Assembly (NCBI RefSeq): GCF_000764305.2 | Contig: NW_025941278.1 | Span: 620,001-684,000, forward strand | Direction: 5' to 3' | Length of the DNA stretch: 64,000 nucleotides | From: Hyalella azteca | Lineage: Eukaryota; Arthropoda; Malacostraca; Amphipoda; Hyalellidae | Shown here: in pieces, positions 1 to 20,047 of the stretch | How the letters are laid out: the number at the start of each line of letters is the position of its first letter | Position numbering within the stretch: position 1 is the stretch's first letter | Program-made: the position numbers and the translations under genes | The notes under the pieces: model-generated | Databases searched by the model: none | Told to the model about the DNA's origin: nothing | Seen by the model: the letters and a program-made list of their open reading frames with translations, nothing else

Positions 1-932
1 AATGAGCCTTAACCTTTATGTTAATTAGATAAGCAAAATTGTATTGATTTATGCTGGATGTTTGAGCAGGAACATCAACATACATACGTTACAAAGAATT
101 GTGACAATCTGCACATGAAGAAGTATGATGACAGCAACATTTCTGTCACACCGAATAATGAATTCCATGGGAAATGCAAAAATATTTAAAATATGCGTAC
201 AAATCTGAATCTTCAAATTTATTGAATTAGCTAATTTCTATGTCAAAATGTGATTATAAATGGTGTTTGCACTGCTTTTTCCCCAGTATTTCCTCGATAC
301 CTGCAGTTGCGTAAGTTTCAAATAGCACCTGTCCAACAAAATATAAATAACTTACATCAAAGGCTAGTTTAATAAAATGTTATTAGTTCAGTTACCTGCT
401 GTGAGCATGATGGCACAATGCTGATGGCTTCATGATTTCATGAGCATTATGGCACAATGCTATGGCTTCTCATTAGAATTATATGCATCCTTACATATCG
501 CCTGCAAACTCACCAGCATATGGCAGTCACTAAGGACTTTACCATTTATATTCATACTTATGTTTTTGCCATTGGCTATATTGGTATAGTATATATTAGT
601 ATAGTATATTGGTATGGTATTTTTTTCCATTGGCTATAATATCCGATGCACACGGAGAATTAGGTTTCAAAATACTTTAATGAATCTTTCCTTCCATCTA
701 CTGAACTCTCCTCTACCACTTATTCCAAATTTTGCTATCTCTCTTTTAACTGCTAAGTAATCCGGGACGATCACGCCCGTTATTATCTTATTCCACCATT
801 TTACTCACTGATTCTAGAAGATCTAATCTATAATAGTTGACGCAAAATTTGACGCATCTTCCCTGAATATATTTTTTCCGCTTCATTTCAACAAGAATTT
901 TTGGTATCATCTATTCCGGGGGTTTTACTCAC
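1..932. other. Intron or downstream sequence, no feature seen
   Basis: This is AT-rich sequence downstream of the last exon seen in the window (minus strand). The donor at 932 opens an intron whose acceptor is not visible here, so the next exon, expected to begin a PDZ domain if the family call is right, lies beyond base 1. No convincing reading frame was found. Confidence 0.6.
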
Positions 933-1150
933 TGATCCTGGACTGATCGGTCTCGACGTCATGGATGACGATCTTGATGGTCTCGGCATCGTTGATGGAG
1001 CTCTGACGGCGGTGGGCGGCATCATCAACGCTCAGAGACGCGTTGCTTTCCAGAGACGCTGTGCCCCGAGACCCACCGCTCGTCCCCATCCCGTATGCCA
1101 CCGCACGCGGGGAGTGCGGAGGAGTGGGCAAAACGCGGCAAACATCGGAT
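933..1150 (-). CDS. Exon of RIM/Fife-like active-zone scaffold (pre-PDZ linker)
   Basis: Internal exon of the large minus-strand gene. The acceptor is ttttatccccag before 1150 and the donor is A|GTGAGTAA after 933. It enters with one base completing a codon begun in the previous exon (GC|A, Ala), stays open for 72 codons and leaves in phase 1. The peptide contains PTPPHSPRAVAYG, a Ser/Gly stretch, SLSVDDAAHRRQSS and finally ETIKIVIHDVETDQSRIS. The charged beta-like ETIKIVIHDVE stretch resembles the linker ahead of the PDZ domain in RIM/Fife-type proteins; that comparison is from memory, not alignment. GC is much higher than in the flanking introns. Certainty is high that this is a coding exon and moderate for the family. 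Confidence 0.83.
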
Positions 1151-2355
1151 CTGGGGATAAAAGTTTACTTGTTTTTAAGGGGATTAAAGCCGAGCACAAA
1201 CTGACTGCCGCACTGACCAAAATGAGAGTCTTACGTTGCCTGGGATTGCGTGGTCGACGCTCAAGAAATGCCGAGCTCCACTATGATGGGAAAAATCTGC
1301 TCTGAAAAGCCCTAACACATCCTCTTATGGAGGATACATCGAGGAAGGCCGGATATGAAAGCTCTGACAGAGATTAATAAAAACCTTCGCACATTTGTGG
1401 GATAACCTCTTGCTTCGGAATAAAGGATTTTCTATATGAATATTGCAGAATTTATTATTTTTGATTTCTTTTTAATCGCGTGACATTAATAGTTTTATGG
1501 AAATTACTTCTCTGCATGAATTAGAATTTGAAAATCATTAATGGATGTCATTATTGAATAATTGGATTAATGAAAATAACTTTTCTGGAATGTTCTTTAT
1601 AGAGCGTTCTGTAAGTTTAAGTTTATTCATTTAAATTACAGGCATAACCCTTACGTTGATGCTTAAACAATGTACAATCTTTTTGATTGTTTCATGCAAC
1701 ATAATTTATTGTATAAAACATCACTGTAAAATCCAACTCGTGCAAAAGTTGACTCGATTTTATCGTTTTTTTACATCAATTCAGAAGTAAATGTCCATGG
1801 AAATAAGTACTTTAAAACAACTCATAAATTTGTGGAAATATCGGGTAATGTCGAACTCTGAAACGCATATCGATCGCACCAGCGCTTCGCCATCCAATTT
1901 AACTTATGTGGAGCTTCTGGCTTCACTGCGAGGTTTCTCGTCGCATCTTGGCAGACATTTAAATTACGATGAATGTAGAAAATTAAATTTTCTTTGTGTT
2001 ATGTCGTAATATGTGCTGCCGAAATAAAATATTTTCATGAAGTTGAATTTTGTTCCTGAAAATTCTGACTGCAAGCATCAGTCCCACCTCGAAAATCAAA
2101 ATTGAAACTTCGTCAATTTGAAAATGATATTAAAATGTGTCTAGTAACAATTGAAAATCTTTAATATTTTTTTTTGAAAGAATACCAGAGATATATTCAT
2201 CCTCAAACGAAAGGCGAAATTCTACTTCTTTTGAACGCTACTTCATCTCAAACTACTAAATATAATTCGAAACTCAAGTTAAGAGTTAAAAAAACGGAAC
2301 AACCAAATTAATTTCCAAGAAAATTTTGCTTAAAAGTGCAGAAAAAAGCACTCAC
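1151..2355. other. Intron between exons at 1150 and 2356
   Basis: AT-rich intron of about 1.2 kb, opened by the strong donor GC|GTGAGTGC at 2355 and closed by the acceptor at 1151. A short open stretch near 1791-2009 on the plus strand shows no coding character. Nothing else is seen. Confidence 0.7.
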
Positions 2356-2608
2356 GCTGTGGACGAGCGTCTTCTAGTGGATCTCCACTCATCCTCTGCA
2401 GGATGAAGGAAGTTTTCTTCTTCGAGACTCAGACTTGACGACGCCTCCCGCCGCCTGACTGGCTTAGCAGCGTCTTGTTTAGCCGCGCCGCTGTCTTTAC
2501 GGCCAGCCGAGGCTGGACCAGACGGCTTCACGGCCGACTTGGTAGGAAGTGGGTCGCCTTGACTCACCGGCGCGTCTGGTGACATGGGCGACGGAGACGA
2601 CTCCAAGG
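2356..2608 (-). CDS. Exon of RIM/Fife-like scaffold, Ser/Pro/Lys-rich linker
   Basis: Internal exon with acceptor cccctcttccccag just before 2608 and donor GTGAGTGC after 2356. The two entry bases complete the codon opened by the exon at 4665 (G|CC, Ala) and the exon leaves in phase 2, matching the exon at 1150. The peptide begins LESSPSPMSPDAPVSQGD, continues with basic and Ala-rich sequence, and ends with SLEEENFLHPAEDEWRST then RRRSSTA. It looks like a disordered, phosphorylatable linker with no folded domain. A second acceptor at 2678-2680 (ctttcag) is also in phase and open, and would add 23 codons. A consensus donor (CG|GTGAGTCA) lies inside the exon near 2561-2565, so alternative splicing is possible. 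Confidence 0.8.
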
Positions 2609-2657
2609 CTGGGGAAGAGGGGATTGTCAGGAGACGAAGGTGATAAAGGAGTGGATG

Positions 2658-2792
2658 ATCGCCTAGGCTTGGATTTGCTGAAAGCTTTTGATTTGATTTT
2701 TTTTTTTGACGTATTGTTAATAAATTATAGACATTGATTCAACTGTTTTAAGAGGCATTACTGGAAGCAAAATTATGACCCTAATACTAATA
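2658..2792. repeat. Intronic segment duplicated at 5557-5692
   Basis: About 135 bases beginning atcgccta-gcttggattt and running through gacattgattcaactgtttt reappear at 5557-5692 in the same orientation with scattered differences. Both copies are intronic. This copy sits immediately upstream, in gene orientation, of the exon at 2608. Confidence 0.8.
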
Positions 2793-3389
2793 CTAATAAT
2801 GTTGGGGAAATTCAAATTATGAACGACGAGGTATTAAAGAGACCAAGCGTCAGTCAAAGACGAACGAATTTAGCTAACTTATTATTCATCCATTCGACTA
2901 AGTCGTCTAAAATCTTCGGTTTTATAAGCGTGACGCTCAAGTAATTCCTGTAACCGTGAGCGCCGCGGTGTTCACAGCATAAACGAAATTCAGAGTTAAA
3001 CTTTTGCCCGCGTAAATCGAAACGTTGCACTCAATTTAATTCGTGACCGCGCTGTCACAGTTTGTTATATCTGAGGGCTGAGCTCAGATTAAGCTGCGTG
3101 GCAACTGAAACTGGATTTTGTTTTTTGTAGCGAATATCTGGAGCAAATAAATGAATTAACAATATTCTGGCGACAAATTCTTTAACTGATCAATATATAG
3201 GGATTAACCAGTCCATAAAAAAGTATCCAAACTACTAATTGCAGTGAAAACTATTGCTGGATATTAACTCGTCAAATACAATATATGATAAAATTTCTAA
3301 GACCATCAACTATTCATCAAAATCTTTTAAGCCACACTACGCTAACCTTAGCCAAATTTATAATATACTTTATTATCTAATATTAGAAA

Positions 3390-3635
3390 TTAACCGAAAT
3401 TGAGAATCAAAGCTGATCTCAAATCAAAGTTAGCTCGGCAATGGATGTAAGTCGCAGCCAGAACGAGCTTTCCTTCCTCGATTTGCCGACTATTTTGGGC
3501 GAGACAAAACAACGCTGATCTGCTTTCATTTGTTGTCGCCATACGGAGCCTGCAAATGCGGCTTGCGATAGTCTCGGTCCCTGACAGCGGCTCTGGAACA
3601 TCACTCCAGCTCAGGGAGAGAGGTGTGTCAGACAT
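3390..3635 (-). other. Coding-like open block, possible cassette exon
   Basis: This open stretch on the gene strand lies inside the intron between the exons at 4665 and 2608. It reads SWSDVPEPLSGTETIASR followed by about 45 more residues to a stop. A pyrimidine-rich run and the acceptor gatgttccag precede 3592 and would give the correct entry phase (1), but no convincing donor follows. The adjacent array at 3641-4107 is pyrimidine-rich on this strand. It is more likely a chance frame or a lost exon than a constitutive one. Confidence 0.2.
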
Positions 3636-3640
3636 TTGAT

Positions 3641-4107
3641 CGTAGAAAGGGAGAATGGGGGAGGAATGAGTAAATTTGGTGGAAGAAAGGGGGAATGGGG
3701 AGAGAAATGAGGAAATTTGTTGGATAGAAGGGAAAATGGGAGGAGGAATGAGGAAATTTGAAGGAAGAAAGGGAGAATGGGGGGAGGAAGGAGGATATTT
3801 TATGGAAGAAAGGGAGAATGGGAGGAGGAATGAGGAAATTTGAACGAAGAAAGGGCAATTTTAAGGAAGAAATGACGAATGGGGGGAGGAATGAAGAAAT
3901 TTGAAGGAAGAGAGGGAGAATGGGAGGTGGAATGAGGAAATTTGATGGGAGAGAGGGGAAATGGGGGGCGGAATGAGGAAACTTGATGGAAGAAAAGGAG
4001 AATGGGAGGAGGAATGAAGAAATTTGGTCGAAGAAAGGGAGAATGAGAGGAGGAATGAGGAAATTTGGTGGAAGAAAGAGAGATTCGTAGTAGGAATGAG
4101 GAAAAGC
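3641..4107. repeat. Purine-rich minisatellite, ~41-bp unit, ~11 copies
   Basis: Tandem copies of a unit like ggaagaaagggagaatgggg followed by gaggaatgaggaaatttg, spaced about 41 bases. The plus strand is almost pure A/G and the minus strand C/T. It lies within the intron between the exons at 4665 and 2608. Long open frames across it (up to 171 codons on the minus strand) are by-products of the repeat. Such homopurine mirror-like tracts can form triplex DNA. Confidence 0.9.
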
Positions 4108-4664
4108 GAAAGATAATGATAAAGGATTGAAAAATTCAATCATTCCAGAATGATATCGATAAAATGTATAAGTGTTTGAAAATAATAAATAATAAAATAA
4201 GTAACAATAAGTAAATAAAATAAAAACAATAAATAAAGTAATGAACGTGTTTCAAAAATTATTCAAAAGTTACATTTTTAGAAAATTAAAAAAATTGAAG
4301 TTTAGGTAGGAAGGCGAAAGCTAATTGAAACACAGATAGAAAAAAGGACGAAGGCAGCAAAAATAAAAAAAATACAGGCTCATCAGAAAAATCATTAAGT
4401 AAGAAAAAAACGAGAAAAGTCGACAAATGAATAAAAAATACAATGTTGAGATAAATAAGAAAAATAACTGGGTAAAGTAGGGAAAAAGGACAGCATGAAA
4501 AAAATCTATGAGAAATACAAAGGCTTTGTATAAATTTTTTTGGTCCTGTGGCTCTTTGTCCCGATATAATAAGGACTTATCGGTGCTAACCGAAGGAAGA
4601 GTATCACTATTTGGATACTATGACCCATTAATTAAGACATAGTGTGGAAATAGTGCGCACTCAC
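4108..4664. other. A-rich intron remainder
   Basis: Very A-rich sequence with many aataaa and aaaata runs, between the purine-rich array and the donor at 4664. No coding or structural signal is seen. Confidence 0.6.
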
Positions 4665-4852
4665 CCGAATATCCCGCTTCATGATGGTTTTCGTTGTTGC
4701 GTGAGATGGATGACCGGTAGCCAGAGTGTCGGCCTGCAGTGGCTCGAGATCCCCGTCTGTTGTCGTCTATGGCTGTCATGCTGCCCACCTCACTCGGTCC
4801 ACCGCTGCTCATGTCGCTCTCGCTGCTCTGCCATGATGACCCGCCTCCAGGA
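4665..4852 (-). CDS. Exon of RIM/Fife-like scaffold, Ser/Gly/Asn-rich
   Basis: Internal exon, 188 bases, acceptor tttttttccag before 4852 and donor CGG|GTGAGTGC after 4665. One entry base completes the codon from the previous exon (AC|T, Thr); it leaves in phase 1. The peptide reads PGGGSSWQSSESDMSSGG, then PSEVGSMTAIDDNRRGSR and a His/Ser/Asn-rich tail ending EAGYSG. It is low-complexity, with several RxxS-type sites that would suit a cytoplasmic phosphorylated scaffold. Both junctions fit its neighbours in frame, which is the strongest evidence that it is real. No domain is recognised. Confidence 0.85.
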
Positions 4853-6014
4853 CTGGAAAAAAATATAAAATTTATGTGGAACTAGAGCTTTTATAAAGAA
4901 ATTTTGATCAGGACGGAAGTATGGGGAAATTCCACATTAAAATTGCTATCGATTTCATCTGCCATGAAATTTTACTTCTGGGAAAAAAATTAGGCTATTA
5001 AAAAATACTTTTCAGAGATAACACTTCTAAAGAGGCCAGTGTCTCCGATGTTATACATGTACACTGAATTTCTTACTTTTTTATATATTAAAAATAATTT
5101 TTTCACATTTTTTATATTAAAAAATATTTTTTTATTATTATTTATTCTGTCAATTGATTCAAGCGTTGTCTCCAACTTTACGCAAGTGTGCAAACTTTCA
5201 GGTGCGAAATAAATTTGCAAGCGTGAAATAAATAATTATGAATTATAATAATAAATAAAGGCTTAAAATCGTAATAATTTTATTAAATCCCAGGGACCAC
5301 ACATAAAAAATTATATAGGATTTATACAACAACTGCTGATATAGATGTTTTCCCGGCTGCAATGCACTTGAAGTGCCGGCAAAACATTTAGTCTGGAAGC
5401 GCAAGTTTACCGAAACACCAACAAAAGGAGCTCTGCTAAAGCCTTCGCAATTGAATAGAAACGAACAAAATGAACGAGCGCAGAATTCAAACCGGCAGAT
5501 ATATACGAGCTGAAATAAAAGCATATAAGATTTATTAATGGTTTGCACGAAAATGCATCGCCTACGCTTGGATTTGTTGAAATTTTTTCAAAAGACAACA
5601 TTCATGTATTGTGAATAAATTATTGACATTGATTCAACTGTTTTGAGAGGCATTACAGGAATCAAAATTATGACCATGATACTAATACAAAAGTACAGAA
5701 TAAGAATACATTGAGTGACTACTTCCAAGTGACATGGAAATCGAAATTCTATTTGTAGATGACATTTATGGCAACGGTATTATTTGGGATAAAAAATTAT
5801 CTTTAAGAAATATAATTGAAATTATATAAATAAAAGGAAAATGAAATATTTTATTGTAAATCAAAATAATGGAAGAACCTATTATGGTTATACTTTAATA
5901 ATATAAAGTCATCCCTAAATTCTGACCGGTGTAAACGTAGCAAAAAATTCAGAATTTGAACCAAGCATGAAGGATGATAGAACAAATCGAGGTATTAATT
6001 AAAAGTAAACTCAC
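4853..6014. other. Intron holding the second copy of the duplicated segment
   Basis: AT-rich intron of about 1.16 kb between the exons at 6015 and 4852. It contains the copy at 5557-5692 of the segment found at 2658-2792. Short open frames at 5243-5601 on the minus strand show no splice context. Confidence 0.6.
5557..5692. repeat. Second copy of intronic duplicated segment
   Basis: Matches 2658-2792 in the same orientation (shared cores gcttggatttg, gacattgattcaactgtttt and aggcattac). The divergence suggests the duplication is not recent. It may be a relic of a local tandem duplication within the gene, or a dispersed repeat that landed twice. Confidence 0.8.
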
Positions 6015-7006
6015 GTGGCCATGAGCAGGTTCTGGTTGGGCAAGTCGTAGTCGCAGCTGTGGTGCCTCTGTGTCCGACATGGAACGTCTAATGAATCTCG
6101 GGCCTTCCTGGCAGCTTCAAGAGCTTCATCTCTTCGGGCAGGTCCTTGAGCTGAGTGTCTCCTAACAGGCAGCTGGCTCCCGCCACCCCATAGGGGAAGC
6201 AAGGAATTGTTTTGTGTTTCTAGATCCTCCTCATAGGATTGCTGGCGAACAATTGACTTGCGTCTTCCTCTCCGGCCTCCCTCCAGCCTCGATTCATCAC
6301 CCGAAGATTCTCCTGAAAGCTGCGATGTGCTGCGTTTCATTTCCCTGGGCGAAGAGCTTTCTTCGGACTCCTGAGAAATCTTTCGGCCGATTTGCTCCCC
6401 GTTGTTGTTCTCAGCCTCGGATTTCTTCTGGTTATCTGAAGGTTTGCTATCAGAAACATTTTGTGCCGTGGCCTCAGGCTGCGAATCGACTGGCTTCTTC
6501 TGAGAATCAATTGGCTCGGGCTTAGGAGTTTCAGTTAGTATTAATGGGGGAACGTAAGACATTGATGGCCTTCGTCGCTCGAGTCCACTGCCGTACGCCA
6601 ACGCACTTGTCACTCCGTCCACAGAAAGCGACGAAGCAGACGTGGTATTTGATATAGCAGGAGGGACAGGAACGAGCGATTGAGCAGTTGTCGAAGCTTG
6701 AAAACGCATCGTCGTGGCGGGGCTATTAGATAGTTTTTGTTGTTGGGAGAGCTGTTGTTGTGATTGAAGCTGATGTTGTTGCAGAGATTGTTGCTGCTGG
6801 ATTGGGGCTTGGGAACTTGCTAAAGCCACAGATGCAATCCCCGTCATGAGGGTCAGGGCTGTGGGTTTACCGGGGGTTGGGAGGACTGGGGCTGAGAGGC
6901 TTGGCTTCGTGGGAAGGATTATTACGGTCGTGTCTTGCGGTGGAGGGTCTGGAGGCCGGGCCCTCGAAGACAGGCGGCGCTTGCATATACTGCAGTGCCA
7001 TGTGTT
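6015..7006 (-). CDS. Large exon of RIM/Fife-like active-zone scaffold (end of zinc finger, Gln-rich)
   Basis: The main exon, 992 bases, acceptor tttttcgacacag before 7006 and donor CAC|GTGAGTTT after 6015. It enters in phase 0 and leaves in phase 2. Residues 1-15 are NTWHCSICKRRLSSR: the Trp and CxxC match the final cysteine pair of the FYVE-like zinc finger of RIM, Piccolo and rabphilin-type proteins. A Pro-rich stretch (16-50), a Gln-rich run (about 66-91) and long Ser/Glu/Lys/Arg-rich sequence follow, including EESSSPREMKRSTSQLSG and QLPVRRHSAQGPARRDEA, ending HHSCDYDLPNQNLLMAT. By family knowledge such proteins tether vesicles and calcium channels at presynaptic active zones. The protein identity is inferred; coding status is near certain. 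No exon carrying the central zinc-finger cysteines was found upstream. Confidence 0.88.
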
Positions 7007-8920
7007 CTGTGTCGAAAAATATGTCATATTCAAGTGAATTTTATAATAAACATGTTTCATTTCATACATACCTGAATTTTATTTTGATCATCAATAAAAA
7101 TTTGGATTAGATAAACTGTAAAGAATGTGCAACCATAGGAATTTGCACCATGTGCTAATGTGCAAACCAATGAAGCAAACGCGTGACAGATTGCGCACTC
7201 TGCCTTTGTCTTAATTACGAATTTTGTTCATTGTTTAATTCCAAGTACCGAGATTTAACCCAATTTTCGCAGTTCACTCGAGCTGCGCCATTGAAAGAAT
7301 TGAGGTTCATGCCTTATTTTCATGTCTTTAGTCTGTACAAAATCCCTTCTCAATAATTCCATTATTTCTCGATGCCGTGAACGGAGCAATTAAACTTTAA
7401 GAAGTTCATTAGAACTTTTAATGAGCATGAAATTAGTTTTTCCTAAGTTCGTTTGTCGTGACTGCGTTAGAAAACATTAAAAGTTTTACGAAAAATTTTC
7501 TCGCAAGCGTCAAAGTTCGGGCAGAGAGCAACACTTTAGAATCGGCCGACAGGATTTCTTAAAATTTTCTCAGGCTCTTCTCTTGAACGATTTAATATAA
7601 AAGAAAATTTCCTTCGGAACGGACTCAATCCGGGCACATTTCTCTTCAATACCGCACGAAAAAGCTATTTCGAAAAATCGAGCATCAAAATTTAATGTTT
7701 TTATTAAGTAACCTAATTAGATGAAGATAATTAATACTCAACTAGATGAAAACCATGAAGCATAAAATTAGCAGACCAACTCTCGTTAATATGTTCATGA
7801 CGTCAGAGCATTCACAATAGGACTTTTTTATTTGAAAGCTAGCGCATTTTTAGACTGCAAATAGACTGATTTTTATACATGTTAGCCCTTCTAAATAAGT
7901 CGAGTCTAGTATTTGGTCTCTTGATGAATTTAAGTTTATAAGCTTTTATGGTAAACTCTACTGGAATAATTTAGAAGAACACATCTCTTATGTTTTACAT
8001 GGAGGTAAAAATAATATTATGTATTTCCATGCAAATGCACAGTCGTCTCAGCAAAGAAAGCAATTATTTTCAGTATGATATCAATGCTCAATTCTGCTAA
8101 AAAGTTAGCGATGGAGTACAGCAAATTTTTTTAGGCGGTAAGACATGAAAATGCATTTTGTATAGAATGAGCCATTTGTGTGTTTTTCGTATTTCCATTA
8201 TATTCTTCTCATATTCGTATTAGCAAAAGTGTCAGAGATGAGATAAAAAGTAAGGTTAAAAATTTAATAATTTTAATTTGATTCTCTGTTCAAGAATAAA
8301 TTTCAAGTTGTCAGTTAAATTTTTCATCGAGACATTGAAAAGGAGATACGTGTTAAATGTGCATTCAAAAGAGTCTTCGTTTTATTATTGCACTTCAAAA
8401 TATAAACGGAATTCAGGGTGACACGATTCGAGATAACGAGATCGAGAATTTAATCCATTTAATCCAGTCAGACTTTCATGAAATCCGCTACTATTTTTCC
8501 TGTTCCAGAATATAAGTCAACAATGTATTAACTTTCGTCCATGATTTCTATTTATTTTAGTGAAAAGTAGAGTCTTCGCAGATTCCATTAATCAAGTAGA
8601 ATATGAAGAACATAACGAAAAAATCTGCCTTCACTAAATTCACTCCAGCGTTGTGTAGGAGTCTCTCTTTTATACGGGGAATTGTTGAAAGGAAAGCACG
8701 CTGATTTATGTCTTTGGAATAAGGTTCTACATTATTGTTCAACAGAACAGTACTCGTAAGTTTATCTCATTTGCGTAGAATATTTCTTAAGAAACTTCTG
8801 AATCATAAATTCCAACTGGAATATTCAATGAAAACTTGCGTGAAAAGCCACGTGCACATCACAACTTGGATTAACTTCTTTTCTTCCTCACCCACTCCCC
8901 TGCCTCACCCACTCCCCACC
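7007..8920. other. Intron, first part; one doubtful mini-exon
   Basis: AT-rich intron between the exons at 10438 and 7006. A phase-compatible open block at 7072-7209 on the minus strand ends at a fine donor (CAG|GTATGT) and contains ECAICHAFASLVC. Its later part is hydrophobic and intron-like, so I do not call it. Nothing else is seen. Confidence 0.5.
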
Positions 8921-9086
8921 TTGTCAGAAAATGTTATTGAAGAACTCACTCTCACCCAGCGTCTGGTGGGTTAAAATACCAAGCTTTATTTTATTGTTAT
9001 TTATTATCCCTTGTCAGAAAATGTTATTGAAGAACTCACTCTCACCCAGCGTCTGGTGGGTTAAAATACCAAGCTTTATTTTATCA
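8921..9086. repeat. Tandem duplication, ~76 bp repeated at 90-bp spacing
   Basis: The block starting ttgtcagaaaatgttattga at 8921 recurs at 9011 essentially unchanged, up to caagctttattttat. It is a recent, near-identical duplication within the intron. Confidence 0.95.
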
Positions 9087-10174
9087 TCCGTTGGCAGTAA
9101 AGCTATTTTACGCAACTAAATATACAAATAGTGAAACTTAAGCAACAAAATATACAGACGAGTTAAGAGCGAAACTTAGTCCAATTAGTTTCATAATGCA
9201 CTCGGAATGAACTATTTCTTCAAGGATGGATAAAATATTAAGAATTTAAATTCATATATGATTGAAAAAATAGATTAACTTGTTGGAAATAAGAAATTCA
9301 CGGGCCAAATAAAACTTACTTTGGAAATTAAGGCTTTTGTCCATGAAATTCAGATAACTTTGAACATCTCTTATCATAAAACAACTTGAAAATTTCACAT
9401 CAATCCTAGTGGAAAGACGGACACTGGAAACAAATGAATATTCAGTGGGGAACACTCTCTTACAATGAAACCTTAAACAAATTCTTATGTCATTTGATCA
9501 GTTGTTATACAGATCAACACAAGGACTCATAATTGTTTTAGTGCATTAATTCCTAACAACCCAAATCTTCGCACCAACAACAAAGGAATAAAAAAGCAAG
9601 GATATTAAATTAAAGTTCTCTACTAATAATTAACGTCGTTGAGGATGATTTTTTCGTCTAAATTAATCCACAACCAACATATTTTGATGCTGGAAATAAT
9701 TTTAAATTTCTGAAAATAATATAATTTATGTCACTTTCAACTCCTTGATACTCAGCCAATTTCACACTGCAATTCATCTTACGCTCACGTGAAACTCTAT
9801 TTTTGCTTGATGCTCCCGAGGCGGTCACCCACTGCAGTTTTGATTCACCCGCTGCACTTGAAACATGCCCATGACACGCGCATGCAACACATCAATCACT
9901 CATACAACAAACACGAATTCTATCGAAAAACACAACACCCGCAGCTAATGCTACTTCCTAAGCTCGCTACACACCATAACTCCACATGACTTACTTTTAT
10001 CACAATACAATAATCGCAGGCTATGTCCATGCAGCCTCATTATCTCGAATGACGCGCTATAACCACTTCCGGTGTTCATTTTGGCGCTCATTTGATACAT
10101 AATTAATATAAACGACTTTTGCGCGACGTTCATCTAAGGCTTAATCAACATTGCCGCACTGTCGCAGCACTCGC
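9087..10174. other. Intron, second part
   Basis: AT-rich, with a slightly GC-richer patch at 9780-9990 that is open on both strands without good splice sites. I looked here for the missing central zinc-finger exon by the CxxC-x4-CxxC spacing on the minus strand and did not find it. Confidence 0.5.
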
Positions 10175-10447
10175 CACCCACCTTGACGCACATTAGATAC
10201 TCCCGACACCCACCTTGACGCACACCAGATACTCCCGACACCCACCTTGACGCACACCAGATACTCCCGTCACCCACCTTGACGCACACCAGATACTCCC
10301 GACACCCACCTTGACGCACACCAGATACTACCGACACCCACCTTGACGCACGCCAGATTCTCCCGTCACCCGCCTTGACGCACACCAGATACTCCCGACA
10401 CCCACCTTGACGCACACCAGATACTACCGACACCCACCTTGACGCAC
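10175..10447. repeat. 32-bp minisatellite made of a splice donor, 9 copies
   Basis: Nine copies at exact 32-bp spacing (10175, 10207, 10239, and so on to 10431) of a unit that on the minus strand reads GTCAAG|GTGGGTGTCGGG then agtatctgGTGTGC. The copy nearest the exon (10431-10447) is the real exon-intron junction; the eight others lie in the intron and each keeps a consensus-like AAG|GTGGGT donor. Differences between copies are one to three bases. The array thus consists of the exon end plus the intron start. Confidence 0.95.
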
Positions 10448-10573
10448 ACCCGGCAGTTCGTGCTGGGGGAGCGGGTGGGTCTGGACGCGGGTTTCTCCTG
10501 CCGTCGGTTGGGGGAGAGGGGAGACATCCCGCTGACCGTGGGGGCTGTCGGGGTTGCGATTGGGGGAGCTTTG
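10438..10573 (-). CDS. Exon of RIM/Fife-like scaffold with first zinc-finger CxxC
   Basis: 136-base exon, acceptor ttttcaattgacag before 10573, donor GTCAAG|GTGGGT after 10438. The entry base completes the codon from the exon at 10900 (AT|C, Ile), 45 codons follow and it leaves in phase 0, as the exon at 7006 requires. The peptide is KAPPIATPTAPTVSGMSPLS, then a basic Pro/Ser-rich run and STNCRVCVK. CRVC would be the first metal-binding pair of the zinc finger completed by WHCSIC in the next exon seen. Its donor is the seed of the adjacent 32-bp array, so up to nine alternative donors exist; because 32 is not a multiple of three, using other copies shifts the frame or adds residues. Confidence 0.72.
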
Positions 10574-10899
10574 CTGTCAATTGAAAAACAATTATTTGTT
10601 ATAAATAACATAATTTTTTTGAGTTTTCAAAGCCCATTCTTCTTCATTACATAAGCTTGAAGCTTTATTGTGAATTCAAGTTCATGCGATGGATTGGACT
10701 CGATTACCTTCACTAATTTGGACCTCTTAATAAACATATATCCGCTTGATTTAAAAAAAATGTACAACGAAACCTAATTTATTCACAATAAATATTTGTT
10801 TGAAAATTAGCCGTTTTCCATGGTAAATGCAAGTGAGTAGCTCGTTCCATTATCTTTAATAAGCAATTTAAAGTCAAGTCGAAGTAATTTGTAACTCAC
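10574..10899. other. Short intron
   Basis: A 326-base AT-rich intron opened by GAT|GTGAGTTA and closed by gacag. No other feature. Confidence 0.7.
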
Positions 10900-11068
10900 A
10901 TCCTGCAGTCGCCAGGCTCGAACTTCTCTCCCTTGTCCCAGACTTTCTGCAGGAGCGAGCGATCTTCCTGTGACATGCCCATGCCGGCCAGCGGCGCGGG
11001 GTCAGGGTGGGCACTGGCAGGGGCCGTGCTGCTGCCTAGGCCTCCTCGAGTGGGTGACAACTTTGTAA
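10900..11068 (-). CDS. Exon of RIM/Fife-like scaffold, contains short charged helix
   Basis: 169-base exon ending at the strong donor AGGAT|GTGAGTTA. The peptide runs TKLSPTRGGLGSSTAPASAH, then PDPAPLAGMGMSQEDRSLLQ and KVWDKGEKFEPGDCR. The stretch QEDRSLLQKVWDKGEKF looks like a short amphipathic helix, which in RIM-like proteins precedes the zinc finger; here it lies about 50 residues before CRVC. The entry phase is 1 with the acceptor tatgcctccag (start 11068); a second AG at 11045 (cactcgag) is in the same phase and would trim eight codons. The acceptor lies inside a 32-bp tandem array. Confidence 0.7.
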
Positions 11069-11240
11069 CTGGAGGCATAGAGTAGGTGACAACTATGTGA
11101 CTGGAGGCACAGAATAGATGATAACTTCGTAACTGGAGGCATAGAATAGATGATAATTTTGTAACTGGAGGCATAGAATAGATGAAAACTTCGTCTCTGG
11201 AGGCATAGAATTGATGATAACTTTTTAATTGGAGGCACAA
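11069..11240. repeat. 32-bp minisatellite made of a splice acceptor, 6 copies
   Basis: Six copies at 32-bp spacing (ctgg at 11069, 11101, 11133, 11165, 11197; degenerate at 11229) of a unit reading on the minus strand ctatgcctccag|TTAC followed by gaagttatcatctattc. Five copies retain the acceptor AG. The copy at 11069-11072 is the one used by the exon at 11068. The unit length equals that of the donor array at 10175, but the sequences are unrelated. Confidence 0.92.
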
Positions 11241-12018
11241 CATTCCGAGAATCGATATTAACAGAAGATGATGAGAAGGTAATGAAGCTGTAAGATTACT
11301 AACTGAAGATATATCAAATGGAATCTCATAATTATTGTTCTCGCTATACAGGAGCTCGGATTTGCAACTGAACATCTAATTGCGGCTGAACTGTTAAACT
11401 TTTAAATGCAACGGAATTACCAATGCTAATGAATTCTATTATAAAGTGGTGAAGTACTTCAAACTGCAGCTAAACTTCAAAGTTCGGAAAGCGATTAAAA
11501 TGCAGATGAAGTTCAATATTTATACAAATTTAAATTATTCCAATCTGTTTCTTCAAACGAGAATACAACTTGGCATAAATGAATTATTCAACGGTGTCAC
11601 TCAAACTAGTGTTATTGAAGAGCGCTGTGAAGAAACTTTATTATCAAATTTGTTGAATAAATAGATCTGTTCATTCATCTTCTGTCACGTTACAAAGTTT
11701 CTTATAAGGCAGTAGGGAATTTGGAGCAATGCAGTCCAATAATTTTTGTTTGTGGGACGCCTCGCGGTCGACCATAGCTTGGAAACTTAGTCTTGGAAAA
11801 GATTATGAGGCTACTTAAAAATGAGATATACACTGCATACAATTCTGTTAACAAACAAAAGGATTAACAAATAGTAATTATCTGTGTAAAGGAACAGGAA
11901 ATAAAGAGACGAACGAATGGATTAACTATAATAGTAGATCGACAAACAGTTAACAAGGCAGCAGCAAAAAATAGACATAGAATCACACCACTAGTAAAAA
12001 TGAGATGAAACAATAGCG
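11241..12018. other. Intron sequence without features
   Basis: AT-rich sequence between the acceptor array and the next repeat. No coding-like block with splice sites was seen on either strand. Confidence 0.6.
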
Positions 12019-12088
12019 AATGAAGGTATCAACAGACAGTAAACGAAGGTATCAACAGCCAGTAAACGAAGGTATCAACAGACAGTAA
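12019..12088. repeat. 23-bp tandem repeat, 3 copies, at exon donor
   Basis: Three copies of gaaggtatcaacagacagtaaac-like sequence directly abutting the donor end of the exon at 12093-12162 on the minus strand. Confidence 0.9.
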
Positions 12089-12092
12089 CCAC

Positions 12093-12162
12093 CCAGGCCT
12101 CCAGCACCCGCCAGACCACCTGTCAGTCCACCTGCTAGGCCTCCGCCATCTGATGTGACCAT
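12093..12162 (-). CDS. Probable Gly/Leu-rich exon of the minus-strand gene
   Basis: Acceptor tattcctccccag before 12162; donor GG|GTGGTTAC after 12093, or three bases further at 12090. Both donors give phase 1, as the exon at 11068 needs. Entry at phase 0 with ATG joins the previous exon (AAG). The peptide is MVTSDGGGLAGGLTGG followed by LAGAGGLG, a glycine-rich linker. The ATG could also be a start codon. Short length and weak donor limit certainty; phase agreement on both sides supports it. Confidence 0.5.
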
Positions 12163-12760
12163 CTGGGGAGGAATATAAGAGTCGTGGTAATATACCAACA
12201 ATTGTTGAGAATAATACATTAATTGTGGATGTCACGTGAGAAAATAAGTAATTTATGAAGAATCCGTTGAATATTCTGGTGCGGGCATAGATTAAGAAGT
12301 AGCAGATTTAAAAAGTGAGTGACTATCTCGCAAATTCTACCAGAATTTTCACAACCATTTGTTGGTTTCGAGCCCCCAAGTTGATCAATTCTCTAGATTC
12401 TAACAGAATTTTAGTCACGGTTGGAGATTTCAAACCCCAACTAGCTGCACCAATCTTGGCGAGCTTCGTCATCATTATTGAAAATCATCCACCTCGTGCC
12501 TTTATTCATTAGTTATATAGAATTAAATTGTAAATGGATGGATAAAATATCTATATTTCGATCCAGAGGGGCATTAAATTCTGTTCTGCATGTGCACTTC
12601 TACCAAAAACGCACCTTACTAAATTTAACGTAGACTTATAAACGAAATTTATTTTTTACTGCATCTGCATGAATATGTATGACACACAGGAACAATACAC
12701 ATAAGCATTCTTCAATAAAGTTGAACTTAATGCGATATCTAAGACAGTGAGTGGAATGGT
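12163..12760. other. Intron, no feature
   Basis: AT-rich intron sequence; the open frame at 12315-12512 (plus strand) has no coding character or splice context. Confidence 0.5.
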
Positions 12761-12768
12761 CAATTTGT

Positions 12769-12853
12769 GTTCACCTTCATTCAGTTCAATTTGTGTTCAC
12801 CTTCATTCAATTTAATTTTTGTTCACCTTCATTCAATTTAATTTTTGTTCACC
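12769..12853. repeat. 26-bp minisatellite made of a splice donor, 4 copies
   Basis: Copies start at 12769, 12795, 12821 and 12847. On the minus strand each reads AAG|GTGAACA followed by an AT-rich spacer (attaaattgaatg). The copy at 12847-12853 is the exon junction; the three others are intronic donor duplicates. Confidence 0.92.
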
Positions 12854-12936
12854 TTTTTCATGAACGACGCGAAGTTGTTGGGCAACATGTCTGTGCTGTT
12901 GCTGAGGTCCCCGGCACGAATTTCCACGTTGTGGGT
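12853..12936 (-). CDS. Probable exon, possibly holding the start codon
   Basis: The GC-rich block ends at the donor AAAAAG|GTGAAC. The frame THNVEIRAGDLSNSTDML then PNNFASFMKK is open for 28 codons and leaves in phase 0, joining the ATG-led exon at 12162. An in-frame TGA lies two codons upstream of the first Thr codon. The block therefore either begins at the weak acceptor gtgagtgacag (12937-12939) or is the first coding exon with ATG at 12888-12886 (MLPNNFASFMKK). In the second case the GC-rich stretch to about 13030 would be 5' untranslated sequence. Both readings are open. Confidence 0.5.
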
Positions 12937-13780
12937 CTGTCACTCACGCCTGCGAGTCACCGATGTGGACACAGCGACCACCGCTGCACGTGGTTGACAG
13001 CAGCACGACGATGCATTTTGTTCCACGCGTTTGGCTTTTAAATATGAAAATTACACCATTTTCTCAACATAAAAGATATTTAAATGACTTGGCTCAACGG
13101 ATCGGACGTTACTGCCATCTTCGATTGAAGTGCATCTCTTGTTGATTTGACAGTAAGAATTTACAGCAATTCTGGAGAACTTGAATTCAGTAATGGGAGG
13201 TAACGTGAATTCGATTTGGATTTCTCATCAAATATTTTCCTTGGAGGAAAGTACTAAGTCTAATAACAATTTTAGTGGAGGATTTACGCTACGTAACAAA
13301 AAAGTTATGGGAAGACCTGAAAAAAGAAAGAAATGATTAAATTCAACGATTTAATTAATTTTTTTGCTGTTTGAGAAATGAACTTTGTTTTCTAGACCAT
13401 AAAATTATAACATTGGAGTATAATAGTACGTCAGGCCATAGAAAGTTCAACATGGAACCCAATTCATGTACGACGCGTTGACTTGATGACAAGTCATTTG
13501 AGCGCAAAAACTTTTAAATGTCTCTAGCGCATTTGGGATTTTCGGATTTGATATCAAACTCGCTCCGAGTTAAAAAAATAAAGTAGGAAAATATTATATA
13601 GATTATTTTTTTCTTAGCAAATGGATGACATCCTTAGTTTTGAAATTTTAATTATTTGAATAATTTTTTCTTGGCTGATGAATGATTCAAATAATTCAAA
13701 TTTGCACGTAAATTTGAATAGCATAAATTTGTTTCACGATGAAATTTATTAAACATGAATTCAAGTCAACCACTAATACC
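12937..13780. other. Possible 5' untranslated region then AT-rich sequence
   Basis: 12937-13030 is GC-rich and on the minus strand holds a short upstream-type frame (MHRRAAVNHVQRWSLCPHR, then stop). Beyond it the sequence is AT-rich with no signal. I cannot place a promoter. Confidence 0.3.
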
Positions 13781-13791
13781 TGTAAATAGCC

Positions 13792-13986
13792 TCATTGAAC
13801 TTCCAGGATCTTCTCTAGGCTCGGACGAGCTTTAATCACAAGCCTCGGTGAAGAATTTTTCAACGTGAAATGAACATCAATATTCTCGTTTCCTGGAAGC
13901 CTAATACTGATCAATCTTCCGTCCTTGAACGTGATTGATATCTTGCCAGGCTTAGCATAACTTCTAAAGTTTGTGAACACAGCCTG
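13792..13986 (-). other. Coding-like terminal block, gene unknown
   Basis: Open on the minus strand from a gcaacag acceptor-like site near 13986 to a TGA at about 13792. It reads VFTNFRSYAKPGKISITF, then KDGRLISIRLPGNENIDV and a tail ending LEKILEVQ. The alternating hydrophobic pattern looks like beta strands. An AATAAA follows about 45 bases after the stop (13745-13750). It could be the last exon of an unrecognised nested gene, or chance. It does not fit the phase of the large gene. Confidence 0.25.
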
Positions 13987-15575
13987 TTGCTGCTCGATCT
14001 AATTAGGCTGGGGCGGCCATTTCGTATTGGATAATTGAAAGCTTTTATCGAAGGTAACACACATTGTGAGGTTGAGCGAGACAAAAATGTTTAATTACAG
14101 CCTTCTGGACACACAGTGCCAAAACGGGTTGCGTGCGTTTACAAGTAAAAGAGTTTAGCGTGACCTGAAGAAATTTAAAATTTCCGAATTAAGAGCAATG
14201 AAGCTTTAAAATTGAACTGCGATGCAATTTTTGGATAAAAGATCTTCAAATAATAATTATGTAATAATGTAATATGTCAGTCAGATGGATTTTGGTTTCT
14301 TCTGAAATAACTTTTGTAGTTTAACGGTTCGCTTCCCTTATTATTGGGAATATATTGCATATATTCTTAGAGAACAATAATTGGCGTCAGGCATTTATAA
14401 CCTATCGCACTTATTCGCCTTGGCTTTATGGATTTCAATTTATCAGCTTATAAATCAAATCCATTCTGTAGAAACACATGCTGGCGTTACAGTGTTGTAC
14501 CATTCCAGCCGATGCTTATAATTCCTGAAATAAACTTTATTTCAGTTTGAAAAAACTTGATAAACAAACACAAATAAGCAATGTAAACTCAACCTATGAC
14601 GCACGACGGAGCGAGGAAGGTGCCGGGTCACCTCCCTAAATTGACACTCTAGGAGCCAGTGGCCGTGAAAATAGTCCTAGGAAGGATGCGAGCACAGCCC
14701 TTCGCCAGTCAGAATTTGTACTCAAAACAGAGCGCCTATATATACTGTACTTCCATTGCTATAACTCAACGTCGCAGCCCCGTTCAACTGAACTACCAAC
14801 TACTCAACTTTACCTCTATAGTTGCCGCGACCATCAGCTGCCAATGCACTTAATCAAGAGTACCTCACCCAATCGATTTCTTTAATACTTCATTTCATTG
14901 CAAAATTCGCCTCTCTTTCCTTATGCAGGTAGCATCAGAATCAAGTAAACTAACATATGGTTCTTATGAATTTGTTCCTACCAGCCAGACCCTTTGACAT
15001 GAACTTAATGCATCACTGCACCGAAACAACGTAGTAAGTTGAAGCAATTTGTATGCAAATTCATCACGCAACAGCCGTGTGTCTTACTCCATACAATATG
15101 GCTATCTCTCTCTATCTTGAACTTGGCTTCGTGGATTAGAAGCATGCCGCTCTCAGGTGAATGAGCCATGGGTATGATTTCCGTGGCTGCTTCTTTTTGT
15201 TTTGCTGGATCATAGACATAAAATGGAATTTGTATAAATGATATATCATAATCTTTTAGGATCTTTTAACTCATAGCATTCACGCCCACAGAAAGAATTA
15301 TAAATAGTTTGTAGATATTAGCCTCCTACAGGTATACACGAATTTCTACCAAACGAATAAAGCGCTTGTTGGGTGTGAAGCTCTGCTTCGAAAAAACGCC
15401 GCTTGTTTTTTGTTATAATTAACGTTTGCATTTCTATTAAAACGATGATTTTTTAGGCAAATCCCAGGAGAATTACATTAGTTTCAACAAAATAATAAGT
15501 TATTGGTGGGCACCTGAAATTTGAAGAAGAACAATCATAAATCAAGCAGATATGCACAACAACCTTTTCACATAC
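13987..15575. other. AT-rich sequence, no feature
   Basis: Intron or intergenic sequence. A moderately GC-rich patch at 14590-14860 has an open plus-strand frame but no splice or domain support. Confidence 0.5.
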
Positions 15576-15642
15576 GCCATCAGTGTCCATGTCTGGTCGT
15601 GGGAGGCAATATTCCCCTGAAGTTAGCAAGGTGTTGCCGGCC
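15576..15642 (-). other. Candidate upstream exon, or part of an old LTR
   Basis: On the minus strand an acceptor (gaggtccttatcag) and donor (GGC|GTATGTG) bracket 22 open codons, AGNTLLTSGEYCLPRPDM plus DTDG, entering in phase 2 and leaving in phase 0. It would fit between the candidate exon at 20048 and the exon at 12936. The competing reading is on the plus strand, where 15583-15792 resembles a solo LTR: it starts TGTCCATG, contains AATAAA followed by cggacttgtcgag, and ends near TTTACA. No target duplication was found, so neither reading is firm. Confidence 0.25.
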
Positions 15643-15792
15643 CTGATAAGGACCTCGAGGCCAGTGGCTTGTCTCTCCGTAGTGAGTGTCAACAAGCGGG
15701 CTGAGGCGACAGCACGACCTATTGGCGACGTCAATAAACGGACTTGTCGAGCACACACACCAACGCTATTCCTATTCTCTAGTCATTTACAA

Positions 15793-16827
15793 GAGCAAAT
15801 ACAGGCACACGAGATGACATGCATCATCGTTTGCAGGAACTGCATGCCTGCAGTTAGTTATTAACGCTTAACTCAATATAGATGTTCGAGTATCAAGGCG
15901 AAGCGGTGACAAACGGGCTGTTTAGATTCCGTGAACTTGGTAGATTCGATTTGCTTATTAACATGAGTAAAGCTTGAGAAAAAATAACTTAATTATGGGG
16001 TGTCAAAGGTATATATTGAGATATTCAGGACAATTAGGCTCATGTGACTTTGAAAGTAATTTTACACTCCAAAGTTGAAGATAAGAGAGCCATGATTCAG
16101 ATAAAAATGATCATTTCGACACGTCTGACGTTCACTTACGATTTGGAAATGGAAAAATTTTAGAGCTCTCTATTTGTAACCTGTATATTAAAGTTGCTCT
16201 GCCATGTTATTACAATCCAACAATATTTCATTGTTGTTAACTATCTTATTTTAATTCGCGTGGGCGATCAAGGTCTAATTTTTTGTCTGCTGCGTTCTAA
16301 ATTTCAATGGTGAAGACGTCAATTTCACTGACTTATTCCCGCAAAACTCTAGCAATTATAAGTGCACCGACACCCTATAGAACAAGTGCACTATAATTTT
16401 GTTTGAGCTTTGCGTCGGCAACGATTGTTTGTACAATTCTTGTTCAATCTATTGTTACGGTATATGGTATCTATTGCAGTTGCCTTTGCTGACCTTTTTT
16501 ATTTGTGAACGGATCACACGAAGGAAAGGAAAAGCGTTTTATCGCAGTGCAGAAACAAAAAAAAGCCCGTAATTCGTTATTATAGAACGTAGGTCATGAT
16601 AAACCACGTAGAGAATCCAGAGCTGTTAATATATAATTAACCATTTCGCAACCTCAGATTTTTTAACGCTTTCATGAGTTGAACTGCAGTTAGTTACCAG
16701 ACTTTGCGACCATTTTCAGTTTCCAGAGAATCGCATTTATTATTTTCATTTCGACCATCAGCATTAAAAACAGATCGATGGAAACTAGCGCATGTTAAGG
16801 ACTTTAAATAAGAGCAAGTGCTTTCAA
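15793..16827. other. AT-rich sequence, no feature
   Basis: No coding-like block, repeat array or structure was recognised here. Confidence 0.5.
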
Positions 16828-17473
16828 CAGTCAGATTACTTAGTGAAAATGCACGTATTACGGCACCCCTGCAGTACAGTCAGATTACTTAGTGAAGAAG
16901 CACGTATTGGCACCCCTGCAGTACAGTCAGATTACAGTCAGATTACTAAGTGAAGAAGCACGTATTGGCACCCCTGCAGTACAGTCAGATTACTCAGTGA
17001 AGAACCACGTATTAGCACCCCTGCAGTACAGTCAGACTACTTATTTAAGAAGCACGTATTAACGCCCCTGCAGTACAGTCAGATTACTTAATTCAGAAGC
17101 ACATACTAGCACCCCTGCCGTACAGTCAGATTACCTTGTGAAGAAGCACGTTTTTGCACGACTGCTGTATAGTCATAACTTAGTGAAGAAGCACGTTTTT
17201 GCACCCCTGCTGTACAGTCATAACTAAGTGAGGAAACACGTATTAGCACCCCTGCTGCAGGTACAGTCATAACTAAGTGAAGAAGCACGTATTAGCACCC
17301 CTGTAGTACAGTCATAACTAAGTGAAGAAACACGCATTAGCACCCCTGCAGTACAGTCATAACTAAGTGAAGAAGCACGTATTAGCACCCCTGCAGTACA
17401 GTCATAACTAAGTGAAGAAGCACGTATTAGCACCCCTGCAGTACAATCATTACTTACAGTGAAGAAGCACGTA
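16828..17473. repeat. ~46-bp minisatellite, ~13 copies, two sub-types
   Basis: Units contain acagtcagattacttagtga or the variant acagtcataactaagtgaag, then agcacgtatt and cacccctgcagt. The first half of the array uses the cagattac variant and the second half the cataacta variant, showing stepwise expansion. The right end touches a short open block on the minus strand (17474-17531) that has an acceptor (cgttctcag) and donors GTAATG and GTAAGT. Confidence 0.95.
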
Positions 17474-18480
17474 CTTACACGTGGGGCAAGTGCCTGTCAT
17501 TACCTACACGAACAAGGATTGAGGCGAAGGTTTTCTGAGAACGAAACAAGATTGGAAATGATATAGGGAGTTGATCAATTAAGTTCTACTGATTACTTAC
17601 TGGCAACTTCACGCAAGATAGAGATTACGAATTATGAGTAAAGAAGTTAAAATTATATTACGTTTGACAACTAAGGACCTGTCAAGAAGTAGATCTAATC
17701 AATTCTCGCCTTTAGAATAAGAAATGAAAAACATTAAATACAACAGTTATCCACAAAAATAAGAAAAAAGCCTCGTGATTGACCTAGAGCTTATAACTAA
17801 CCTGATGCGAAGATCAGCCTGAAGATAATGTTTAGGACTTAATGAGAAGGTGATATAAACTTCCTAAGCGGTGTTGCCTTATGAGAGGAAAATACCTAAT
17901 TTATTCAAAGTTAATCAAAATCGTATTTTTCTCAGGAACCCGGCAACCTTCAGCTATGAATCCTCCTCTTAATTGGTGGGAGATTGTGCCAACTATTATA
18001 TATTTCTCTAAAAATTGATAAACTGATGAATGATCTCATTAGTTTTAGATAACAATTTTCTCTGAATAATATTTTTAACAATGAACTCAAATAAATTCGA
18101 TCATTAGCCATAATTTTCACGGCAAACGACTTTAATTTGTTAGGACGCAAGTCGAACCAAACCTTAACTGCAGTCCATGAACATCGTCAATAAAACGAAA
18201 AGTCCATAACTCTCGGCCGTCATTTTTTACAGCGTCACACGCTTGCATTGTCTTGAGGACGTTTGGAGTTTATAAATGTATTAAATGCCTTTCAAACAAA
18301 GCCCAGTTCTTGCCAAAAATTTCCTCCTTTCATCAGTGAAAACCCTCGGAGCAAAAGACAAAGGAAGTTTGGGGCAAAGGAGCAAGAACTTCGGTAACTT
18401 GATCAAATGGTGTGAGGCTAAGCAACTTCTGTTGACTCTTTGCCACCTGACGCAAGGCTTCGACGTGACGACAAAATTGC
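17474..18480. other. Spacer with coding-like frames at both ends
   Basis: 17474-17531 (minus) reads KTFASILVRVGNDRHLPH between cgttctcag and GTAAGTACG. 18285-18480 is open in several frames on both strands (plus: MPFKQSPVLAKNFLLSS, continuing into the array). With so many frames open I cannot choose, and call no gene. Confidence 0.3.
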
Positions 18481-18795
18481 GCACGAAAAACGCAAGCTGC
18501 AGACTGGCAGAACTGAGAACACTTGCTGTAGGCTGGCAGAACAAAGAAACGCTTGCTGCAGATTGGCAGAACTGAGAACACTTGCTGTAGGCTGGCAGAT
18601 TAAAGAAACGCTTGCTGCAGACTGGCAGAGCTGAGAACGCTTGCTGTAGGCTGGCAAAACAAAGAAACGCTTGCTGCAGACTGGCAGAATTGAGAACGCT
18701 TGCTTGGAGGCTGGCAGATTAAGCGACGATTACTTCAGACTGGCAGAACAAGGAAACGCCAGCTTCAGACTGGCAAAACTGAGAACGCTTGCTGT
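18481..18795. repeat. Minisatellite, ~54-bp unit built of two ~27-bp halves
   Basis: Alternating halves like aacgcttgctgcagactggc and agaacacttgctgtaggctg form a higher-order unit of about 54 bases, about six times. Open frames crossing it come from the repeat. Confidence 0.92.
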
Positions 18796-19689
18796 AGGCT
18801 CCTGTAACTAGTGGCAGTTCATGAAGGAAAAAACATTCACTTTGAATAGGAAAAGTGGATGATTTTTCCTATTCAAGGAGGTTTACTGCAGTTACGGTAA
18901 AGAAATAGCGCAGACGCTCTCTTTAAATTTACCGTTTGAATAAAGAGTGAATACCAAAAATTCCCATATTTTTACTACAGACAATCCTGAATCATTGCGG
19001 ATATTATTGATGCCTGGAAAACTCACCTAGGCAGTTTTTGTTTGTGCGGTAATTAGTAGAGTCAAAACAATTTATAAATTGGCGCTTCGAATTCATCCTC
19101 GCCAAAAATGTATTTCTAAAATTCTTTCTTTACGACTCCAGTTGGCATCGAGTACAGACACAAGTTTAGCCGTGCAATGAAAAACGAGGATTAATAAAAT
19201 AAAGACACAAGAGAGATAAAGAACAAATAAAAATGCTTAATGTATATCTCACAAAATATATATGAATGACATTTTTCTGTATTTGAATAAAATTGAAATA
19301 AACGCTGCAGAGAAGGGCTCATTTGTGACAGTAGAGAAAGGAAAACCAGCATAATGGAGAAGACTTCATCAAGACTGAGAATAAATTTGCAATGATAGAC
19401 GAGCAGAATGAAACAGATTTGAAATTGAACAGAAAATTCAATTTGATATTTATCTCATTTATCTGCATTAACTATATTAATTAATTCAGCCGTTCGTCGG
19501 GTTGCATGCAATATTCCTCAAATTCCCACAAACGCAATCGAATTTATTAGGCGACCAATTAACCTGCTAAATTGAAATGCGTCCTTCAATTATGTTCCAC
19601 TCTAAGTGTTAATTCCAATAAACGCCATGTCCCTTTAATATGCGAAAATTAGTTTTTTTCCAGAGCGAAAAGGCAGCGAAAATAGCATA
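18796..19689. other. AT-rich sequence, no feature
   Basis: Nothing recognised on either strand. Confidence 0.5.
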
Positions 19690-20047
19690 GCAGCTAAGTT
19701 ACAAAATTCGCAAATTGGTAAATCTTGTAAATTTGCATTGCGGATAGCCTACAAAATTCGCATAGTGGTTAAGTGCTGATAACCTACAAAATTCCCGAAG
19801 CGGTTTAAGTTAATAAATCGACATAACGATAAACGTGCCAAATTACCTTAGCGTTAAATTTAATAAATTTACATACATTAAACCTGCGAAATTTGCATGC
19901 ATTTGGAAACCCGCGAAATTCGCATCGTGTTAAACCTACAAAATTCGCATAATACCTGCGAAATTCACACAATACCTGCAAAATTCACACAGGAGTAATC
20001 CCGCGAAATTCGCATAGCGGCAAACCTGGAAAATTCGCATACATTAC
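19690..20047. repeat. Degenerate repeat with acaaaattcgcata core
   Basis: Irregularly spaced (about 22-35 bases) copies of a/caaaattcgcat with aacctgcga linkers. On the minus strand the array begins at the donor of the candidate exon at 20048. Confidence 0.85.

Follow-up and report, generated by a model that had tools for sequence, protein, structure and literature searches.

The window, by which we mean the whole stretch of DNA analysed (positions 1-64000, 64,000 nucleotides), carries on its minus strand part of a gene whose exons, located by tblastn with the proteins of relatives in an assembly of 519 Mb, run in order from window position 11069 down to about -43694 and include PDZ and C2 parts. 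Peptides of these exons match decapod proteins that carry the names Fife or Piccolo-, RIM- or mucin-like (E down to 1.9e-142), among them a Panulirus protein named Fife (E 1.5e-133); krill, stomatopod, beetle and tick proteins come after the decapods. Both the sequence relationship and the exon order (zinc-finger end pairs, PDZ and two C2 regions) are those of Fife, and on these sequence grounds we take the host to be a Fife-type (Piccolo-RIM-like) active-zone gene of a crustacean-like arthropod. The gene runs on below the window with its PDZ and C2 exons. Pfam and PDB sequence searches with exon pieces returned no family and no meaningful chain, a protein search with model residues 1-125 returned nothing at E up to 1, and the first coding exon of the Fife-type gene was not found by a search whose empty answer shows nothing. 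Minisatellites abound in the window (66 rows in TRF); arrays with a period of 10 or more cover 9.5% of its bases and 12.3% of the gene region.

Features of the putative Fife-type gene within the window (splice junctions are marked by a slash)
Feature	Position	Strand	Basis
Coding exon E_a (VTKLSPTRGGLG...KVWDKGEKFEPGDCR), next upstream of E_b	10900..11068	minus	tblastn
Coding exon E_b (KAPPIATPTAPTVSG...RSPSTNCRVCVK), ends NCRVCVK, native donor AAG/GTGGGT, GT 10437-10436	10438..10573	minus	tblastn
Coding exon E_c (NTWHCSICKRRLSSRAR...), next recognisable downstream, phase 0	6015..7006	minus	tblastn
Three more exons: 4852-4665, 2608-2356, 1150-933	933..4852	minus	tblastn
32-bp minisatellite, nine donor motifs (8 GT, 1 GC)	10175..10450	minus	TRF and unit listing
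Second 32-bp array, 5.7 copies; unit holds acceptor CCTCCAG/ and first coding letters (VTKLSPTR) of E_a	11055..11237	minus	TRF and unit listing
In-frame TGA within the third array unit; stops the E_b frame for donors 4-9	10366..10368	minus	Frame computation

One exon expected between E_b and E_c (7007-10437), that for the two inner zinc-finger cysteine pairs, was not found among the minus-strand matches of a tblastn search of 184 kb, and a profile scan covering window positions 1-20000 on both strands did not find it either. A genome search for it returned the end of E_c; its five other matches lie on different contigs and are weak (E 1.7 to 7). Real loss and an assembly gap are equally possible; loss would keep the reading frame, because E_b joins E_c in phase. 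The same intron holds a 90-bp tandem duplication at 8919-9084 (1.8 copies, 100% matches).

The end of E_b is set by comparison with relatives. Searching with decapod relatives by tblastn places its terminal CRVCVK at 10438. In six decapod proteins from five species, namely those that contain this stretch, CRVCVK is followed at once by TLxxxEFFxVCxECG, and two beetle proteins have CRVCLK at the corresponding position. Because the decapod proteins run from CRVCVK straight into TLxxxEFF, the exon ends at AAG/GTGGGT in phase 0. In a stomatopod gene model the TLSDKEFF part is kept, with unrelated residues ahead of it, as expected if an intron lies there. A coding minisatellite, in which the exon would read on through the repeats, is ruled out both by the position of TLxxxEFF directly after CRVCVK in decapods and by the stop that the E_b frame meets within the array.

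The array at this junction has a period of 32, 8.6 copies and 93% matches (TRF), and its unit joins the 13 last exonic nucleotides to the 19 first intronic ones. On the minus strand, GTCAAG/GTGGGT, with T or C as the second intronic letter, occurs in nine units, whose last exonic bases lie at 10438, 10406, 10374, 10342, 10310, 10278, 10246, 10214 and 10182. The exon-proximal unit straddles the end of the coding exon, and spans, as amphioxus mirages do, an exon-intron boundary, here fixed by relatives. The preliminary description of this DNA had read the junction at 10438 as the exon-proximal unit of the array, which the tblastn and protein comparisons with decapods confirm. It had also placed the same donor in all eight distal units; seven of these have GT, and the third unit of the array departs from this in having GC. 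Its further proposal, that the array derives from the junction itself, is borne out by the repeated exonic letters, which encode R-V-C-V-K. Since these residues are conserved in relatives, the exon copy is ancestral, and for the same reason the array presumably grew from it into the intron. A lone junction inside an array is not improbable, given how much of the gene region arrays cover; junction-spanning arrays exceed chance through their recurrence, not through any single overlap.

The reading frame was computed for splicing each of the nine donors to E_c, the next recognisable exon, the true splice partner of E_b being uncertain because the zinc-finger inner exon was not found. Only with donor 1, the native one, does the frame stay open through E_c. 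Donors 2, 3, 5, 6, 8 and 9 (six of the eight distal) shift the frame; donors 4 and 7 (two of the eight) are in phase but lie behind the in-frame TGA. The earlier expectation that choosing a distal donor shifts the frame or adds stops thus holds for all eight. The sequence permits use of distal donors, in that seven of the eight have GT, but the distal donors of E_b cannot give the full-length frame. Junction calls from short reads would need filtering in such repeats, where aligners are reported to produce false junctions (PMC10632439).

Two further junctions of the gene are built in the same way, both of them acceptors. The array at the start of E_a contains six acceptor copies, with AG kept in five, and its units join CCTCCAG/ to degenerate copies of the letters for VTKLSPTR, a peptide present in decapod relatives. 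At an exon at window position -29675, a 79-bp unit is repeated in 7 copies, with GTGCAG/GTC in all seven units and the full GTCGGGCTCGA, with which that coding exon starts, in six. Three Fife arrays (the E_b donor, the E_a acceptor and that at -29675) thus hold, inside intronic units, copies of coding sequence shared with relatives. Unproductive distal sites are not the rule throughout this class: the frame stays open with one distal acceptor of the E_a array (+96 nt) and with one of those at -29675 (+78 nt).

As the array cover of the gene region made a few such overlaps expected, a wider test was run on exons whose choice took no account of repeats. RIM and related C2/PDZ exons were retrieved by searching the genome with a moth RIM protein. 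Channel exons came from a Pfam Ion_trans search, from which regions of clustered matches were taken and then 14 remaining matches <330 nt; from the 51 Ion_trans matches the sample thus took all those <330 nt and only part of the longer ones. Junctions were placed near the ends of homology or of reading frames by a simple splice-site score. Omitted from the count were the five weak matches of the zinc-finger search (L015-L019), locus L046 and a Fife exon near window position -40596; some reading frames, in L042, L044 and the part of L038 below 3440 (its last exon excepted), with ends that could not be placed; and single exon ends without a placeable splice site, including the acceptors of L053 and of the first L044 exon. 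In L042 and L047 the array starts at GTGAGT itself, and these were scored as not spanned.

Arrays span 10 of 99 junctions in the first set and 9 of 42 in the second, including 6/27 in the last 14 exon loci, which were chosen by match length and not by repeats. With exon intrusion limited to 40 nt, the first set gives 9/99 against 2.2 expected (P 3.6e-4), or 6/71 without Fife (P 0.006). Pooled, and with intrusion up to 50 nt, 18 of 141 junctions are spanned against 4.1 expected from intron positions (P 1.7e-7); without Fife the figure is 15/113 (P 1.0e-6), and a GC-matched control raises the expectation to 6.0 (P 2e-5). All these P values are optimistic, since they treat junctions as independent, which those within one gene are not, and since the placement of many exon ends relied on splice-site scores. 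The counts are uneven from set to set, at 3/28 for Fife (P 0.046), 4/34 for RIM/C2/PDZ (P 0.016), 2/37 for the first channel set (P 0.29) and 9/42 for the second batch (P 2.7e-6), so that the excess rests largely on the last batch. Spanned junctions comprise 11 of 70 donors and 7 of 71 acceptors in the pooled sample. There are 19 spanned junctions in all, two of them uncertain: L034, which is not among the 18, and L057, which is among them and has an uncertain donor. Exon-side array edges peak at the junction, with 18 edges from -20 to +19 nt and 35 from -60 to +59, compared with a total of 30 over +60 to +399 (17 bins of 20 nt, on average 1.8 each, though one has 5). Periods divisible by three occur in 2/17 junction arrays and 28/92 others, a difference that is not significant (P 0.15) in a comparison whose set of 92 still includes some junction arrays of other genes.

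Individual loci illustrate the range of forms; the channel gene names used here are those we assign from Ion_trans matches and sequence resemblance. In a sodium-channel-type gene (L038 4343-4709), the donor after the exon end SRMQGMR/ is carried by a 19-bp unit in 19.3 copies (TRF), and its decoys keep GT in 18 of 18 tracked, with positions +5/+6 altered in two. One channel exon, in L052, has its acceptor in one array (50 bp x 10.5) and its donor in another (39 bp x 3.9). A RIM zinc-finger exon has its donor end copied twofold in a 124-bp unit. The suggestion that such an array is peculiar to one splice donor is accordingly not supported, as the same build occurs at donors and acceptors in the same gene, in RIM, in the sodium-channel-type gene and in other channel and C2-domain genes. 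In L028, a junction array contains at about 1871-1909 a palindromic stretch that we take to be a transposase-library sequencing adapter, which suggests a gap-filling error there. Two near-identical channel exon copies lie about 1.7 kb apart in L043 (875-1138 and 2592-2825), representing either a tandem exon duplication or an assembly duplicate.

To our knowledge, boundary-spanning minisatellites are known only from amphioxus and some human genes. In amphioxus, 'mirages' are described in Adh3 and in the globins BflGb6 and BflGb9 as minisatellite-like repeats across exon-intron boundaries (PMC3087553, citing Canestro et al. 2002). The same source reports them at 5' and 3' boundaries of several genes, with AG/GT signals kept in many units and with length and somatic instability, gives RT-PCR data suggesting that regular splicing is undisturbed, and proposes mirages as an intron source (PMC3087553). 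The arrays described here resemble these mirages as reported, in that a tandem-repeat unit lies across the exon-intron boundary, at both boundary types and in several genes (Fife, RIM, the sodium-channel-type gene and other loci). They differ in that the window is not amphioxus, its genes matching arthropods best, in that they come from a crustacean-like genome, and in that their frequency among sampled junctions was measured. The E_b array belongs to the kind named in amphioxus, and this kind is apparently abundant in the present genome.

Human cases have also been described. Downstream repeat units of the IFI6 (6-16) minisatellite are reported to be used as splice donors (PMC4526556, citing Turri, Cuin and Porter 1995). 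Here too a minisatellite with donor-bearing units sits at an exon end; IFI6 is, however, a single case in which downstream units are reportedly used, whereas at E_b each distal donor either shifts the frame or comes after a stop. In human segmental-duplication genes, minisatellites with units of on average 30 bp at exon-intron boundaries are reported to alter gene structure, with 27 intron modifications after manual inspection (PMC2812944). Those repeats share the position at exon-intron boundaries, but as described they lie in recent primate paralogs, some with novel introns, in contrast to the conserved synaptic and ion-channel genes studied here and to the native E_b junction, which agrees with that of relatives. 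Among the titles and abstract openings searched, no report of boundary-spanning minisatellites in arthropods appeared; the nearest arthropod report concerns a prawn lectin family with coding tandem repeats (PMC7536079).

We consider it probable, on the features read from the DNA, that the E_b array is a mirage-type minisatellite that arose as a tolerated by-product of junction-centred tandem duplication, with splicing at the native site, and that it is not a dosage device. A tandem duplication would have taken up a 32-bp segment across the exon end and intron start, and this segment would then have expanded to nine copies into the intron, the direction indicated by the exonic letters. Such an array may be tolerable in that the original mRNA is regained when splicing uses the exon-proximal copy. 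Transcripts spliced at distal donors would be non-productive, given the frames computed above, and would probably be removed by nonsense-mediated decay. This decay has been argued to shelter new introns (PMC2809761), a logic that would also extend to the frame-breaking decoy sites seen here. The same process appears to have acted at many junctions of this genome, donors and acceptors alike, as the sample of 141 indicates, and the arrays would most likely reflect a high rate of tandem duplication near exon edges, with no role in Fife dosage.

Intronic copies retain most of their splice dinucleotides (51 of 53 donors and 33 of 36 acceptors tracked; the donor count takes in two positions beyond the E_b array). 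In donors of intronic copies the nine-letter core varies by 4.0%, compared with 8.8% in the rest of the unit, and this lower variation could mean that decoys are used; a rotation control, in which the core is slid around the unit, gave P 0.064 combined, 0.073 for donors and 0.32 for acceptors. These values bear on the alternative that extra splice-site copies help the spliceosome to locate exons between long AT-rich introns and that the arrays are kept by selection. The mostly intact dinucleotides and less variable donor cores agree with such selection, as does the three- to fourfold junction excess after controls, but we consider it unlikely, because the rotation control is not significant, the distal sites of E_b cannot yield the protein, and motifs would be expected to persist in young arrays even without selection.

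The dosage hypothesis builds on the idea of the preliminary description that copy number could tune protein output, and holds that donor number sets the fraction of productive splicing and tunes the Fife protein, with more units giving less protein. It would draw on the nine near-identical donors, of which all eight distal ones are unproductive, and on human IFI6, which reportedly uses downstream units as donors (PMC4526556). However, the same build recurs at many unrelated junctions, including acceptors, and regular splicing is reportedly intact with amphioxus mirages (PMC3087553). We therefore regard a dosage device as quite unlikely. Assembly error in the repeats, or chance contact of random minisatellites with exons, is a very improbable explanation: the adapter-like stretch in the L028 array and the 9.7% array cover of the first 246 kb sampled, from which some overlap is expected, speak for it, but substitutions distinguish the copies, the excess holds over intron and GC-matched controls, and duplicated coding letters within units are not expected of a chance neighbour.

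With the E_b array read as a tolerated mirage, the surprising part is how frequent boundary-spanning minisatellites are in an arthropod and how closely they focus on exon edges. We raise tentatively, as a possibility, that in this crustacean-like lineage splice junctions are hotspots of minisatellite birth, with about 1 in 8 sampled junctions lying in a junction-founded array, a 3- to 4-fold excess over introns that persists with GC matching. The measured frequency and edge focus make two questions testable: why exon edges are favoured by tandem duplication, and how the spliceosome handles near-perfect splice-site copies 19 to 124 bp away. If the hotspot reading is true, splicing would create or shelter genome-wide arrays of redundant splice sites, raw material for new introns and isoforms.
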